Below are positions 2,325 to 32,526 of a stretch of DNA of 36,235 bases, piece after piece. The DNA is from a virus: the IMG/VR virus record IMGVR_UViG_3300043429_000461, positions 1 to 36,235 of that record; one strand, 5' to 3'. The position numbers were made by a program, and so were the translations under genes. The notes below the pieces were generated by a model. That model saw only the letters and a list, made by a program, of their open reading frames with translations. It was not told the DNA's origin and made no database searches. Every line of letters starts with the position of its first letter. Position 1 is the first letter of the stretch.

Positions 2325-4940
2325 TCAAATTGTCGAAGGTTGATTTGCAACGTAGTCCATGTAGGCATAGACGTAGGGCTCCAGCGTGCCCTTGGTGTTG
2401 TAGGGGTCGGCGGCTGGTGGGTAATCGAATGGGGCCTCCCTCCAGTCTGGGTTTGCCTCGTACTGGCCCGTCACCTCGTTCTTGCGAATCACACCGGTTA
2501 CGTCGCACGATTGCCCGTCCCAAAAGAGCACGTACACGCGCTTTTTCTTGAGGCTGTACCAGACGCGCTCAACCAGGGTTGTAAGCTCGTTGCACGCGAA
2601 AAAAGACTCGGATGGACCAGGGTGTTTAACTGACGCCTGCAGGAAAAAAGTAGGTGATTCAACCTCTGATGCTGTCGGCCTGTATGTATCTGAATCGTAC
2701 CTCTCCTGCGCATACTGCACTGAAAATGGCGCTGAAACCACGTCGTCGCCATCACCGATTTCCATGGTGAACTCAATAGTTTCTTGTTCCGCATCCCCGC
2801 TGGTGGCTGACAGCACGTACTTAATGTCTGTATGCCCAAATACATCACTTGTAAAAACACTACGCTCAACGTAAAACTTTGCCATGTATTGCAGCATCGC
2901 CGCGCCATCAATCACACTTGCAAAACCAGTTTCTCCGACAACAACCTCCCCGTTACGCTTTACACGGTATGGGATTTGAGATCCATTTGCCACAGCCGAA
3001 GCGGTAATGTAGAAGTGTGAATATTGACCAGCCAGCACTGACTGCGTAAGGCACTCGACACTCAAAGACATGCCTGGGGTGACGTTGTTTTCACCCTCAC
3101 CATAAAATTCAAAATGTGCAGTAACTGGGTTTGCGCGCGCAGTCTGAGTTAAGACAGTGACAAGCCTATACCTGTCAGTTGGTTGGCGAGGTGAAATCTT
3201 GAGACTCAAATAAGAATTTCCAGGCGCTGGATGCGCAGCAGAAAAACTGCCGGACAAAGAGCCTTCGCCAGTTATATAAAAACCAGTCGCATTACCATCC
3301 TCATCTTCTTCCTCAATTAACCCAGTTATGGCGTACGGCACATACGGGCTGCCGCCAAACATCGCCTTCATGGTCAAGCCAATCTCGTCTCCTGGCTGGA
3401 TGGCAAAGCGCGGCACATGATTCATCCTCACCGACACGATTTTCGCCTCTTCGACAAAGAACTCATGTTGCCCGCCTGGGTATATCACCACGTTAATCTG
3501 CCCTTGATTGTTGGCATAAAACGTGTTCTCACGAATACCTTTTCCACCAGCAAACCACCACGCATGCGGTAGGCATATTCCGTCAGGAACAAGTCTTGGC
3601 GGCTTTAAATGCGGCGGATGTTTGTCCGCATGCGTATTTTCAAATTCGACTAAATCATAAGCGCCTCGCACCATATCAAAATACACCCCAAGGCCACTTG
3701 CTATAAACGAAGAATTTTCGTCATAAATAATTTTTCCGTCGGATGGCCAATTTGCAAATACCTTGCACTTTATTAAAACACCATCGAAAATTCCGCATGA
3801 CGATAAGACGTAAATAAATGCGGATGATTCTCCGTAGTCCAAGCTCAAATGCTGTACGTTATCTTTATATTCGCCATAATACCAACCAACCCCAGACTCT
3901 GCAAAGCCTATTGGTCCGTTAAAATTATACTGAGTATGAATGGTTTTTTCCTCAAACAATTTTTTCTTATTCCCATCCAAATTAAAACAAACCCCGCGAG
4001 AGATTGCGTAATTTCCTGAGTGGTTTGCATCCACAGTTATCCAAGGAGTGCCATCATCTGGCCAGTCAAGTGAATTGAATGATTCATCCAATAATCCAAC
4101 AAATGGGAATACAACACTGCCATCAAAAGCACACACAGATGTGCTTCCGTCATACAACATAGAATTTGAGTTATATGTTGTAACATAAGAAAGCCACCCT
4201 TGAGAATGGTCATTATTTAGCGTGGTAAGGCTGACAGCTTCGATTGACTTATTGGCTACATTGAATCCAGTCTTGTATAGGCTCCTAATATCATCAACCA
4301 GGAATGTACCGCTCATGGTTGATTGGATACTGTAGCCTGCTCCTCTATAGAATTGATCTAGATATTGATCATATACTGATACATCGGCCGCTGCCTCAAC
4401 AAAAAAGTTTACGCCAGTGTTCGCTGCGGAAATCTTTTGGTCAAAGCCAATCTGGTTGTATTGAATACTTGAGTCAATATACTTTAAGGCATAAAATATA
4501 TCTTGATAGCCACTAAATACCAAGCTCTGTGCAACAGCAAAATTATCTCGCGGGATTCCTTCAAAACCACGTTCAAACTGAAACGGGTACTTTTTTCTCC
4601 ACCAAATAGAGCGGTAATCTACTTGAGGGACAGAATAAGTGGTTTCGTGTTCTGCGTACCTAAATTTGCCATATTTAATCAGCGGGCGGTTTTCATTTAA
4701 GTGCAGGAAATTTGGCGATATTGGTATTGCAGACCCAGGCGTCGAAAACGTAATCGGCGCAATGTCGTCGGTGATGATGGCCTTCACCTCTGGGCCTGAG
4801 GTGTTGTAGATGACGGTGTGGGTCGGTGTTTTGATGGCGCGTGGCTTGTAGCCTGGGATGCGCTCGGCCTTCTCCGCCTCCTTCTTTGCGCGGGCAAACA
4901 GGGCCGGTACAAGCCCGCCCGTGTAGAGGACGCGGGCCAT
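2325..4940 (-). CDS. Large virion protein, probably tail-associated, AT-rich centre
   Basis: 871 aa, function unknown. The start is ATG 4938-4940, which overlaps the upstream stop as ATGA and has AGGAG six bases upstream; a TTG one codon earlier lies too close to that site. The N-terminus (MARVLYTGGLVPALFARAKK) and C-terminus look conserved in style with the other late genes. The central part (about 3600-4720) is rich in Tyr, Asn, Ser and Ile and clearly more AT-rich than its neighbours. The Gly/Tyr/Asp-rich, beta-type composition and position among tail genes suit an extended tail or adhesion component, but no domain is recognised. The AT-rich part suggests that an internal module was exchanged. 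Confidence 0.7.
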   Translation of the reverse strand: MARVLYTGGLVPALFARAKKEAEKAERIPGYKPRAIKTPTHTVIYNTSGPEVKAIITDDIAPITFSTPGSAIPISPNFLHLNENRPLIKYGKFRYAEHETTYSVPQVDYRSIWWRKKYPFQFERGFEGIPRDNFAVAQSLVFSGYQDIFYALKYIDSSIQYNQIGFDQKISAANTGVNFFVEAAADVSVYDQYLDQFYRGAGYSIQSTMSGTFLVDDIRSLYKTGFNVANKSIEAVSLTTLNNDHSQGWLSYVTTYNSNSMLYDGSTSVCAFDGSVVFPFVGLLDESFNSLDWPDDGTPWITVDANHSGNYAISRGVCFNLDGNKKKLFEEKTIHTQYNFNGPIGFAESGVGWYYGEYKDNVQHLSLDYGESSAFIYVLSSCGIFDGVLIKCKVFANWPSDGKIIYDENSSFIASGLGVYFDMVRGAYDLVEFENTHADKHPPHLKPPRLVPDGICLPHAWWFAGGKGIRENTFYANNQGQINVVIYPGGQHEFFVEEAKIVSVRMNHVPRFAIQPGDEIGLTMKAMFGGSPYVPYAITGLIEEEDEDGNATGFYITGEGSLSGSFSAAHPAPGNSYLSLKISPRQPTDRYRLVTVLTQTARANPVTAHFEFYGEGENNVTPGMSLSVECLTQSVLAGQYSHFYITASAVANGSQIPYRVKRNGEVVVGETGFASVIDGAAMLQYMAKFYVERSVFTSDVFGHTDIKYVLSATSGDAEQETIEFTMEIGDGDDVVSAPFSVQYAQERYDSDTYRPTASEVESPTFFLQASVKHPGPSESFFACNELTTLVERVWYSLKKKRVYVLFWDGQSCDVTGVIRKNEVTGQYEANPDWREAPFDYPPAADPYNTKGTLEPYVYAYMDYVANQPSTI

Positions 4941-6727
4941 CAAAAGCTCCTTTTGCCGGGCTCTACCGCGAAGTCCAGGGACTCAACCGAGTTGATGCCA
5001 GCGCCAGACAGCTCAAACTGCAACCGCTTGCCCGTGATGCCTCGGCCGATTTTTGCCCGGTACATGGAGCCACGCTTTGGGCCGGCAAACGGGTAGGTGT
5101 TCACGCCACCAGTCGAGCGCACGGTGAGCGAAGGTGGAGTTGATGCGTCGGCCTCCATCAAGCAGGCCTCGGGGTGTTTTTTCTGCCCGGCACCAAAGTC
5201 AAGCATGGCCAGGAGCGCGGACTTGTTGAACGGCGTGCCATCGTCGGTGGCCCCGGTCATGGCGAACACGCCTGACGGCCCGGCGACGTACACCACGCCG
5301 TCGAGTTCGGCCACACTTTCTATTCCAATTGCGCTTTGCAGCTCGGTGACAGCTGCCTTGCGAAGTCCCATTGCCAGCAAGGTCACCGACTGTGCTGCCA
5401 ATGAGGCGTGCATGAGGCTTTGCGGCATTGGCGCTGCTGCTGACATGCCAATGGTTGGGCGAAGCCAAATCTGCATGTTTGAGGCCAAACCTGCCGGTGC
5501 CGTGGCCTCAATGTGTGCGGCAATTCCTGTTGTGACGGAAAAACCAGACCTGGCTGTGTAGGCGGTGCCGCCCATGCTCGCCGTAGCAAATGCATCCGCA
5601 TCCAAACTGGATTTAGCAAGCGGCGCAATGGAGTTGATGGATGCGTCTATGCCAGTTGTAGTTGCAATGTCAGAATCCACCAACCAGGCAACAGCAGTCA
5701 TTCCAGCCATCACGCCAGTGGCGGCTGACAAGTCCGACAAAATCAGCGGAGCCTGTCCGACAATGGCCGACGGCTCATCGACTGAAATAGACGATTCAAT
5801 CTCGCGCCCAAACTCTCCAACGGCTTCAACTGATATTCCAGTGGTGGCGTCAAAACTTGATGCTATTTGGGAAAATGCACCAACCATGTCGGATGGCCTG
5901 TCCACGGCCACGGCGGAGCGTGCCAACGACAACACACCGTCCATCGTCGCAGCTGCGCCAATGATTGCATTTGCCTGCCCAGTCATCATTGGTGCAGCTG
6001 CGTCAATCAAGTACCCAGAGATGACCGCCATGCTGCTTTTTGGCAATGGCATTGCGGAGTCGATGTTCGCAATCTCATAGACTGGGAACACAATCATCGG
6101 GACGGCTATTTCTCCCGACAGCTCCAACGGCACCGCAACGTCAGCGGTGACCTGCTGCATGGGAACGCCAAGCAGAGGCTGCCAAAACTCGCCGGTTGCC
6201 TGCTGCATCGGAACCGCCACGACGGCGGAAATCTCGGGCAGAAGTCCAAACACAGACTGCATTGGCACCGATATTGAGCCATCAATGCTTGTTGTACTGG
6301 CCTCTGCGACCAGCTGCTGCATGGGTATGCCAATGGATGCCGACATGGACAGCTCACCCATGAGCGCGGTGATGGTGGGCATTGGCACCGAGATGGTGCC
6401 GGATAGCTCACTGGGGGCCTCGGATGCAGCTGAAGCGGTCACCAGCTGCATGGGCAACTGGATGGCGGCAGAAATGGTTGCCGGTTGCATTCCCTCAATC
6501 GTGGAAGCCACCTGCTGCATGGGGACGGCCACGGCGGCAGTCAGTGTTGACGGTTCTTCTGCCGCAACTGTGCCGGTGAAAACCGGCATGGGTATTGAAA
6601 TCGTGGCATCCAGAAAAGGCTTTTCCAGGACGGCGCTGATCTGCAGCTGAGGTATGTTGACGACTGCGGATACCTTGGGTTCCACCAGAACGCCGGTTAC
6701 CAGCTGCTTTGGAATGGTCAGCGCCAT
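4940..6727 (-). CDS. Repetitive virion protein with VPMQQ-type repeats
   Basis: 595 aa. Residues about 1-215 contain roughly ten copies of a unit built round (I/V)xVPMQxV, spaced about 20-25 residues, separated by Ala/Ser-rich linkers. A second, looser repeat (motifs such as DATTGIxVEAV and TTGIDASINS, about every 38 residues) runs to about residue 430. The C-terminal 120 residues are non-repetitive (GVVYVAGPSGVFAMTG, then GPKRGSMYRAKIGRG) and look like a folded beta domain. The composition is extremely poor in charged residues in the repeat part. Position between two small virion genes and two large ones indicates a tail structural role; the alternating hydrophobic pattern suggests a beta-fibre or stacked-strand fold. 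Family unknown to me. Confidence 0.7.
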   Translation of the reverse strand: MALTIPKQLVTGVLVEPKVSAVVNIPQLQISAVLEKPFLDATISIPMPVFTGTVAAEEPSTLTAAVAVPMQQVASTIEGMQPATISAAIQLPMQLVTASAASEAPSELSGTISVPMPTITALMGELSMSASIGIPMQQLVAEASTTSIDGSISVPMQSVFGLLPEISAVVAVPMQQATGEFWQPLLGVPMQQVTADVAVPLELSGEIAVPMIVFPVYEIANIDSAMPLPKSSMAVISGYLIDAAAPMMTGQANAIIGAAATMDGVLSLARSAVAVDRPSDMVGAFSQIASSFDATTGISVEAVGEFGREIESSISVDEPSAIVGQAPLILSDLSAATGVMAGMTAVAWLVDSDIATTTGIDASINSIAPLAKSSLDADAFATASMGGTAYTARSGFSVTTGIAAHIEATAPAGLASNMQIWLRPTIGMSAAAPMPQSLMHASLAAQSVTLLAMGLRKAAVTELQSAIGIESVAELDGVVYVAGPSGVFAMTGATDDGTPFNKSALLAMLDFGAGQKKHPEACLMEADASTPPSLTVRSTGGVNTYPFAGPKRGSMYRAKIGRGITGKRLQFELSGAGINSVESLDFAVEPGKRSF

Positions 6728-30524: not shown

Positions 30525-30564
30525 AAAAAGAAAAAAGCCCGCCCCCAATTGCTCAGGGGCGGGC
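30525..30564 (-). terminator. Strong intrinsic terminator ending the structured RNA
   Basis: Minus reading: GCCCGCCCC pairs with GGGGCGGGC (30537-30545 with 30556-30564, 9 bp, 10-base loop) and is followed by TTTTTTCTTTTT (30536-30525). The preceding hairpin 30569-30584 has a C(UUCG)G loop. It is the strongest terminator in the window. Confidence 0.92.
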
Positions 30565-31398
30565 GAAAAGCTGCCGAAGCAGCTCAGGGAGGTTTGGTTG
30601 ATGGTGGCGGCATGCCGCAACGGCTGCTGGATGGAGAGCCGTTCACCTCTGACTTTGGGTTGCATCCAGCACAGAGCCCGGTTGTCAGCACTTGCGCCCC
30701 GAAGGGAACACCATCACATCAGCGGGCCGGACCTCCATTCCCGGCTTGGAACTGTCTGACGTTCCCCGCAATCGTGTGCCACGCTTTCGCCGTGTGGGCC
30801 ACAACTCCAATCTTCCCGCCTGAATCGAACAGACGCTTTTCCACTGTGCTGCGTGTCTCGGTTGCCTTGCGAACAAGTGCTTTCCACGCCGCCGCTGATG
30901 TGATGGCCCCAGCCTTTTACATCGCTGGGATGGATGTGATGCCCGACAAGCTGCCCATGAAGCAGGGCTTTGCTTTTCTTCAACGCACGGTTCCTTTTGA
31001 TGGAAAGTGGTTTTTTGCGCGCCGTGGCTAATTCCGCACACGCTCTTGCCGGTCATCAAGTAAGCGCCCAATCCAGACGCTTGCTTGATGCCCCTCGTTT
31101 GAGGGGTGGCCTGCAACTCCCCGGCGAACCGGGCTCAGGCCGCGCACTGGCTGCGCATTGGCAAATCAGTATTTGCCGCCGTGTTTCGATGACCCCGAAG
31201 GGATGACGTTGGAAGTACCCACCAACCTAGTTGCAGCCTTGCACTGACAACCCCGGTCCAACGTGGCATTGCTGCCTTGCGGTTTGCTTTTTTTGGCGTC
31301 CGCTTTGCCTCACCGGGCTGTTTGAGTGCCCCGGAACACATACGCAACAGGTTGCAAAGCTCGATCACCTTGGCCCGATGCCGCTTTGTTTGCGGCAT
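30525..31398 (-). ncRNA. Candidate giant structured phage RNA, about 870 nt
   Basis: The minus-strand transcript from the leftward immunity promoter would begin at about 31398 and run to the terminator at 30525. It opens with a perfect 7-bp hairpin (31378-31398). Over twenty further hairpins follow, among them 31302-31308 with 31354-31360; 31208-31226; 31160-31177 (7 bp); 31142-31156; 31091-31106 (6 bp); 31054-31090 (12 bp, one mismatch); 30948-30975; 30908-30929; 30851-30889; 30726-30765 inside GCGG/CCGC (30722-30725 with 30766-30769), a compact three-way junction; 30625-30671 (9 bp). UUCG loops at 30569-30584, 30697-30706, 30866-30877, 31120-31133 and 31193-31202, and a GAAA loop near 30785, occur in the minus reading only. 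Coding frames here do not look like proteins. Class unknown; GOLLD/ROOL-type RNAs are comparable in size and setting. Confidence 0.75.
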
Positions 31399-31405
31399 GG
31401 GATGG

Positions 31406-31434
31406 ATTCTCACACAAGTGAGATACGTAGTCAA
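31406..31434 (-). promoter_or_regulatory. Leftward immunity promoter (pL-like)
   Basis: Minus reading: TTGACT (31434-31429), 17-base spacer, GAGAAT (31411-31406). The layout is nearly the same as the rightward promoter at 32296-32324. Start of transcription falls near 31398, at the first base of the 5' hairpin of the structured RNA. The operator covers spacer and -10. Confidence 0.8.
31408..31423. promoter_or_regulatory. Repressor operator, left, perfect palindrome
   Basis: TCTCAC-ACAA-GTGAGA, 6+4+6, overlaps spacer and -10 of the leftward promoter. Same half-sites as the operator at 32307-32322. Binding by the CI-like and Cro-like proteins is inferred from position. Confidence 0.8.
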
Positions 31435-31549: not shown

Positions 31550-32257
31550 TTACACCCGCTCACTCTGCTTGTAAACCACCTCGCCAATCAGGACGGTGCT
31601 GTCGTCACATAGCTTGCGCGGGTGGCGGCGCTGGTCGGCGTTGTCGCTGCTCAGCCACCACTGGCCCGCGTCCATCAATAGGCGCTTTACGGCCACCTCG
31701 CCGTAGTAGGCCACCAGGAATGCCACGCCGTCTTTGGGTGTGGTGCTTTCGGTGTTGACCACGATCAGGTCATCTGGCCACAGACTTGGCACCATACTCT
31801 CACCGGCCACGCGCAAGGCCATCAGGCGCTCCGGCCGGTAGTTGTGTGTTTTGTACCAGTCCGCCCGAAAGACGATGGGGGCTGTGTCATGCACATCCTC
31901 AATGGCGAACCCGGCAATGCCCGCCTGGGCCTTCACTGATACCCGGCGCACTGCCGGGTAGTCGGGGTTGTTCTCCAGCTCAATCTCCGACGCCGGGCCA
32001 CCCTCCGCGCTGGCAACGAAGCTGGGCATGCTCGCAGCAATCACGTTGGGCTCAATTGGCCCATCTCCAGTGGCCAGCCATTCAGCGCTGACTTGCAGCG
32101 CCCTTGCAAATGCCATCGCGCTTGATTTGATGCCGCGTTTTCCAGCCTCGATGTTGCCCACGGTGCCGGTGGCAACGCCCGCCTTCTGGGCAAGCTCAAT
32201 TTGGTTCAGCCCACGGAGTTTGCGGGCGTGTTTCAGTCTGGCGGCTGGCGTGCTCAT
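31550..32257 (-). CDS. CI-like phage repressor, S24 self-cleaving
   Basis: 235 aa. Residues 4-60 form an HTH_3 domain (LKHARKLRGLNQIELAQKAG, then VATGTVGNIEAGKRGI). The C-terminal LexA/S24 peptidase domain has Ala112-Gly113 as likely cleavage site (KAQAGIAG), the nucleophile Ser154 in GESMVPSLWPDD and the general base Lys191 in YYGEVAVKRLL. Cleavage stimulated by RecA would induce the phage. It maintains lysogeny by occupying the operators at 31408 and 32307, which flank the gene. ATG 32255-32257 with weak GGA upstream; its own promoter in 32258-32320 is not clear, as expected for an activated maintenance promoter. Confidence 0.92.
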   Translation of the reverse strand: MSTPAARLKHARKLRGLNQIELAQKAGVATGTVGNIEAGKRGIKSSAMAFARALQVSAEWLATGDGPIEPNVIAASMPSFVASAEGGPASEIELENNPDYPAVRRVSVKAQAGIAGFAIEDVHDTAPIVFRADWYKTHNYRPERLMALRVAGESMVPSLWPDDLIVVNTESTTPKDGVAFLVAYYGEVAVKRLLMDAGQWWLSSDNADQRRHPRKLCDDSTVLIGEVVYKQSERV

Positions 32258-32299: not shown

Positions 32300-32324
32300 C
32301 CGCAACTCTCACTTGTGTGAGAAT
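32296..32324 (+). promoter_or_regulatory. Rightward immunity promoter (pR-like)
   Basis: TTGACC (32296-32301), 17-base spacer, GAGAAT (32319-32324). Transcription would start about 32331, one base before the Cro-like ATG, so the mRNA is probably leaderless. Confidence 0.82.
32307..32322. promoter_or_regulatory. Repressor operator, right, perfect palindrome
   Basis: TCTCAC-TTGT-GTGAGA overlaps spacer and -10 of the rightward promoter, exactly as the left operator does. The two half-sites equal those at 31408-31423. Confidence 0.82.
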
Positions 32325-32331
32325 GTCGGCC

Positions 32332-32526
32332 ATGAACGATCTTGACCAAGCAATTCAGGCCGCTGGCGGTGTCAGCGCGCTGGCCCGAACTATCGGCGTG
32401 AAAACGCCGCACAGCATCAGCATGTGGAAGAAGCGCGGCGCTGTGCCGCACGCCTGGAGTCTTGTGCTTGGGGAGTTCCTCAAGAAGCAAGCCCGCAAGC
32501 GTAAGCCCACCAAAGAGGTGGCTTGA
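32332..32526 (+). CDS. Cro/YdaS-like regulator
   Basis: 64 aa from ATG 32332 (MNDLDQAIQAAGGVSALART), seven bases after the -10, so probably translated from a leaderless mRNA; another in-frame ATG at 32323 lies inside the -10 and is excluded. The pattern AAGGVSALARTIGVK...ISMWKKRGAVPHAW is typical of YdaS/Cro-type helix-turn-helix proteins. A basic tail (KKQARKRKPTKEVA) follows. Divergent to the repressor across the operators, hence the lytic switch protein. Confidence 0.85.
   Translation: MNDLDQAIQAAGGVSALARTIGVKTPHSISMWKKRGAVPHAWSLVLGEFLKKQARKRKPTKEVA

Follow-up and report, generated by a model that had tools for sequence, protein, structure and literature searches.

The described RNAs that come closest to the one considered here are STnc100 on the one hand and GOLLD and ROOL on the other. 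STnc100 (RF02076) is a gammaproteobacterial prophage sRNA that has been detected in EHEC by RNA-seq and, for one copy, confirmed by Northern blotting (PMC5331693). Two strains have it downstream of stx2 (PMC12370729), and it is considered to be related to PasD, an Hfq-bound sRNA recovered by RIL-seq (PMC13192938). Lambdoid prophages carry STnc100 in their Q region, and its layout is as follows. A closing helix, UGGUGAAU...CACCA, encloses a first hairpin, a variable part and a second hairpin, CCGGG-AGGCA-CCCGG, which stands directly before the closing strand CACCA. GOLLD and ROOL are found near tRNA islands, and the GOLLD linker sometimes holds tRNAs (PMC12286853).

Here, we analyse a viral window of 36,235 nt (the whole stretch of DNA under study), in which positions 30525–31398 constitute a structured RNA gene of about 870 nt on the minus strand, delimited by its fold, its flanking signals and a collinear relative. 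Homology and covariation show that the RNA belongs, on comparative grounds, to a modular phage RNA family. Our main reading, to which we give a probability of roughly 0.55, is that it is a divergent non-coding member of this family that would be silent in the lysogen, combine a clamp with cargo, and be made when repression lifts.

A Putative Repressor-Controlled Transcription Unit

The RNA is read from 31398 to 30525, and the minus-strand unit runs from an operator-overlapped promoter, through some 870 nt in which no gene is recognisable, to a strong terminator. The minus strand folds at −367.8 kcal/mol (z −4.0); dinucleotide shuffles average −340.9 ± 6.7, and none of 20 folds as low. The plus strand attains a z of only −1.9. 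The predicted leftward promoter (31406–31434, minus strand) is made up of TTGACT, a 17-nt spacer and TG-GAGAAT, matching 9 of 12 consensus positions and having an extended −10. A perfect 16-bp palindrome, TCTCACACAAGTGAGA, lies over this −10 (31408–31423) and is the putative repressor operator; a second, identical copy at 32307–32322 lies over the −10 of a divergent rightward promoter. These two exact copies compare with an average of 0.23 in shuffles, even with three mismatches allowed. Between them is the minus-strand gene (31553–32257) for an S24-like, CI-type transcriptional repressor (phrog_4, E 1.4e-39). Judged from the order of these elements, this is a pL/pR arrangement. Therefore, the proposal of the first-pass annotation that the RNA is directly controlled by the lysogeny repressor is well grounded, binding of the repressor to the palindromes being presumed.

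The transcript is predicted to open with a perfect 7-bp hairpin, AUGCCGC-AAACAAA-GCGGCAU (31378–31398, minus strand), and to close with an intrinsic terminator followed by a T tract (30527–30564, minus strand; hairpin 30564–30537). Given the fold, promoter, operator and terminator, all on the minus strand, the structured unit of about 870 nt behind a predicted promoter, described in that annotation, is real, and the hairpin that it placed at the predicted +1 is present. The terminator is also where it was drawn, but its stem has 12 pairs rather than the 9 first counted. At the rightward promoter (window 32307–32335), as at the leftward one, the transcript would start very near an ATG. Leaderless starts at both promoters are possible, as judged from these positions.

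The reading frames had been described as devoid of protein-like content, and this is borne out: the ORFs of 30525–31398 have zero matches in Pfam, NCBIfam and PHROGs, and neither a family match nor codon-phased conservation was found there. A leaderless small protein gene would nevertheless begin exactly at the predicted +1, where an ATG opens an 87-codon basic ORF that resembles phage N protein and has the basic N-terminus MPQTKRHRAK. We regard this explanation as hardly credible. Like the other frames, this ORF is without a family match in the three collections; its start is covered by the 7-bp hairpin, and the covariation downstream is structural. Locus L091, the sole relative with the same start, shares the start hairpin at its own predicted transcript start but does not keep the reading frame, since it diverges past MPQTKRH and has a 1-nt indel in the aligned DNA.

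Relatives of the RNA and Their Spread

No Rfam 15 covariance model matched the window at its family's cut-off, and at E values up to 10, the models returned the terminator hairpin region and chance items only. The GOLLD and ROOL models had no match in the window up to the same E value, and membership in either family, one of the options offered at first, is thereby set aside. What survives is the analogy of setting, namely, a large structured non-coding RNA under a lysogeny repressor. The STnc100 model also left the window unmatched at E 10, its cut-off being 47 bits.

When the whole RNA was compared with named phages by blastn, no match emerged, and the neighbourhoods of IMG/VR relatives of CI and of RecT, searched by blastn and nhmmer, showed no RNA similarity at first. 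A weak match in L005 (E 0.01) was taken as chance. Three short matches came from 401 genomes of a single family, searched with a Comamonas genome as the centre of the set. Two of them, in L078 and L080, fall in ordinary coding DNA and were dropped. The informative one, L079 (33 nt), has the window's hairpin, then GGGGCCAUCA, and then a stem in which both strands are changed relative to the window. Pattern scans found the hairpin in 15 contigs, the downstream core in 58, and other closing-helix sequences in more than 120. L097, in which the anchor pattern is inside a coding sequence and without the outer strand, was rejected as a member and kept as a chance control.

With the short core as a query, blastn identified 201 named phage records and 1258 of 5426 complete E. 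coli genomes, about a quarter. The core is present in lambdoid phages, phage P1 and the N4-like phage IME11. The full RNA array of locus L084, when compared with E. coli by blastn, matched nothing because conservation is confined to the short core. The pseudoknot hairpin, P0 and P1, which belong to the 3′ half of the window RNA, are met again, with compensating base changes, in beta- and gammaproteobacterial phages.

The window is collinear over about 430 nt with the viral contig locus L155 (nhmmer E 7e-5), the shared segment extending through the pseudoknot, P0, P1 and the terminator. For the 5′ 430 nt of the window RNA, the start hairpin is the only element in common, with one relative. In the nearest relative contig, L065, the site of the RNA is taken by a gene for a highly repetitive protein (1–560), after which come the same terminator region and 108-aa gene; it was rejected as a source of a homologue for that reason. 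The replacement suggests that the RNA can be swapped out as a cassette. Acidovorax phage AP1 also encodes a repeat protein in a similar style, downstream of its RNA (L098, about 4640–5060).

Conserved Helices and a Pseudoknot

Family loci were gathered with patterns that fix part of helix P1, and the sequences were thinned to less than 80% identity; the statistics given in this section carry no tree correction. A typical unit is closed by helix P1, with two hairpins, P2 and P3, just inside it. In the common type, the P2 and P3 loops are predicted to kiss through GCUGA/UCAGC, and single relatives have the compensatory forms GGUGA/UCACC, GCGA/UCGC and UUGC/GCAA. Upstream, there is a long helix, P0, often adjoined by a pseudoknot hairpin.

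In the window, the H-type pseudoknot hairpin (30908–30937, minus strand) has the sequence ACAUC-CAU-CCCAGC-GAUGU-AAAAG-GCUGGG and the covarying outer strand, ACAUC (30937–30933) pairing with GAUGU (30923–30919) and CCCAGC (30929–30924) with GCUGGG (30913–30908). Among 15 sequences chosen by the hairpin sequence only, the pseudoknot pairing holds in 92.1% of cells versus 84.6 ± 1.4% when shuffled. The covariation score is 0.229 versus 0.093 ± 0.021, and none of 500 shuffles reaches it; as a control, slid versions pair in 20–43%.

P0 starts with CCAUCA and ends with UGAUGG. Its 5′ strand in the window, CCAUCACAUCAGCGG (30892–30906, minus strand), forms 15 of 15 pairs with the 3′ strand, CCGCUGAUGUGAUGG (30711–30725, minus strand). 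At least 12 of 14 pairs form with the core's own upstream strand in 62 of 162 non-redundant cores, compared with 2 of 484 when the strand is taken from another locus. The 5′ strand of helix P1, UGAUGGUG (30709–30716, minus strand), overlaps the end of P0, and all eight of its bases pair with the 3′ strand, CACCAUCA (30599–30606, minus strand). The 127 cores used for P1 were selected by the sequences of their P2 and P3 hairpins; P1 is paired in 94.2% of their cells versus 69.2 ± 1.2% in shuffles. At all but one of the eight positions, 95% or more of the sequences pair, and at least four pair types are seen at each of positions 3 to 7. Covariation had been predicted for homologues, should they exist, and it is found in the pseudoknot, P0 and helix P1. 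The earlier picture of many hairpins across the stretch is backed by homologues for these three elements, all located in 30937–30599.

The common-type P2 and P3 kissing hairpins were not found in the window, where hairpins of other sequence take their place. Because it is without the common loops, the window copy is, in terms of its sequence, a divergent member of the family. Further upstream, the hairpin CCCCUC-AAAC-GAGGGG followed by a CAUCAAGcAAGCG/CGCUUaCUUGAUG helix (31054–31106, minus strand; 12 of 13 pairs) shares with the family's P0 the layout of a hairpin and then a CAUCA stem. Enterobacterial arrays (L165, 2640–2910; L162, 2918–3720) contain tandem CAACAGGUAAGAGCAUU/AGUGCUCUUUCCGUUGUGG-like helix repeats, the counterpart of P0.

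Variable Interiors, tRNAs and Cassette Exchange

The P0 interior measures 43–179 nt, and both it and the P2–P3 interval vary freely among members. The P0 interior of the window contains a hairpin like the T-arm of a tRNA, GUCUG-UUCGAUU-CAGGC (30818–30834, minus strand). Such hairpins are present in 35 of the 162 neighbourhoods, whereas 0.32 would be expected from shuffles. A tRNA is found within 1.5 kb of the core in 27 of 162 cases, and on the same strand in 25, versus 7.7% at random positions. Two loci have a tRNA gene between P2 and P3, tRNA-Pro in L285 and tRNA-Ser in L232, the latter placement having been read from the sequence. The T-arms and tRNAs could be mere passengers.

Three related phages (L081, L086 and L090) are 95–97% identical in the 5′ part, including the pseudoknot, and 20–45% identical in the module interiors where these are swapped; the flanks are alike again in pairs. 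This pattern shows, at the level of the alignments, domain-wise cassette exchange between phages. In L084, where RNA units of this family stand in a tandem array, a permuted tmRNA match (1217–1453; 79.5 bits) follows directly and may represent an integration site or else a tmRNA carried by the phage.

The company of tRNAs invites a comparison with the large phage RNAs. The family resembles GOLLD in being large, phage-borne and lysis-linked, with tRNAs nearby or embedded, and ROOL in being a large, ornate phage RNA near tRNA islands (PMC12286853). It differs from GOLLD in its helices, and from both in having no sequence or covariance-model match to them. By analogy, the RNA might self-assemble through kissing loops into an ornate particle, either a homo-oligomer or a cage, in which tRNAs or other cargo would be stored at lysis. 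Such a particle would accord with the ecology of the family, which is found in phages and prophages, near or around tRNAs, under repressor control, and with a large size and several tertiary contacts. Moreover, the 5′ strand of helix P1 has two complementary partners, the P0 strand upstream and the P1 strand downstream (at least three extra pairs in 48 of 62); therefore, strand exchange is possible, and in a particle it could take place between copies. We nonetheless think the particle unlikely, as GOLLD and ROOL match neither in sequence nor by model, the number of units and the interior are far more variable than expected of a symmetric cage, and many members have just one unit, of close to 200 nt.

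STnc100 as a Small Form, and a Proposed Role

The plan of the family unit is that of STnc100: the same closing helix, a first hairpin, a variable part, and a second hairpin directly before the closing strand. The STnc100 model has sub-threshold matches in phages P1 and IME11; the phage P1 match is within the same RNA array, and the P1-like array scores 39.2 bits against a cut-off of 47. STnc100 differs in being about 206 nt long, with one unit, and in its loops and interior. Moreover, the Rfam STnc100 family is without multi-unit arrays, P0 and pseudoknot modules, embedded tRNAs, and beta-proteobacterial members. The first-pass annotation had allowed for a new class of RNA. This is right to the extent that the large modular forms appear undescribed, but Rfam does cover the family, if only through STnc100. 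In the open-access literature that we searched, there is no description of large multi-unit RNAs, although other papers could hold one. Within that scope, novelty appears to lie in the large modular forms, in the modules for the pseudoknot and P0, in the exchange of cassettes and in the extension to beta-proteobacteria; already known is the unit in one small form, STnc100, of unassigned role.

Enterobacterial single units of this kind, STnc100 with its relationship to PasD, are expressed sRNAs. Accordingly, the RNA might be an Hfq-dependent base-pairing sRNA whose processed units pair antisense with mRNAs. STnc100, of the same unit architecture, is transcribed in EHEC (PMC5331693), and its relative PasD was recovered with Hfq by RIL-seq (PMC13192938). 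Against this, the family conserves structure rather than a seed, and a size of 870 nt and tertiary contacts are unlike base-pairing sRNAs. We judge this role about as improbable as the particle.

We favour the clamp with cargo. Removal of the CI-type repressor would turn on the leftward early promoter, and the RNA would then be made. The conserved helices would form a stable clamp that protects the RNA and displays the cargo, that is, the variable sequence of the P0 interior and the P2–P3 interval, with its T-arm hairpins and complete tRNAs. During lytic growth, the cargo may act on changing host or competitor targets as a decoy, an antisense or a tRNA-like substrate. We infer this role from architecture and variability alone. 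It is tempting to propose, as a tentative extension in which we place distinctly less trust, that beta- and gammaproteobacterial phages share one unrecognised modular clamp-RNA system, of which STnc100 would be the smallest known piece. The system would carry swappable RNA cargo, tRNAs included, and be switched by the lysogeny repressor; the cargo might be a weapon or a shield that diversifies in response to host or rival factors. Taken as one RNA system, the family would pair a defined tertiary clamp with interiors that can be exchanged. It adds a separate example, from proteobacteria, to the question asked for GOLLD and ROOL of why phages keep large structured RNAs beside their tRNAs.

Genomic Settings

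The RNA is downstream of the repressor gene, on the same strand, in the window, mEp460, Acidovorax phage AP1 and the E. coli EC38 prophage, and it is between Q and the lysis genes in PAJU2 and several E. coli prophages. In phage P1, the array, at about 69.5–70.2 kb, is located downstream of the ban promoter, which C1 controls, and has tRNA-Asn and tRNA-Thr next to it. The annotated plp and upl (NC_005856, 69472–70041; in L168) are antisense over the RNA array there, adjoining tRNA-Thr, and are probably not genes. In IME11, the RNA is inside a 2-kb gap with tRNAs. A terminator follows the core within 240 nt in 25 of 127 cases versus 4.5% at random.

A position where the left operon begins, ahead of a terminator, as in the window, or one between Q and the lysis genes, would also suit a cis-acting leader that, like HK022 put, modifies RNA polymerase and so lets transcription of the early or late operon continue past the terminator that follows the leader. 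The put RNAs are shorter than 100 nt. Neither the size nor the cassette interior of the present RNA is needed for such a role, and the RNA is also found in IME11, which, being N4-like, is expected to use its own polymerases, and in phage P1 beside tRNAs. We consider a leader very unlikely and retain the clamp with cargo as the preferred reading.

The family unites a prophage sRNA of unassigned role, gaps left without annotation in phage P1 and in N4-like phages, and antisense ORFs that are probably spurious. Its presence in standard laboratory phages such as phage P1 makes its role directly testable. Among phages that carry the RNA family, C4 antisense RNA is found in L156 (864–1052) and L082 (5497–5585), and isrK in L156 only.
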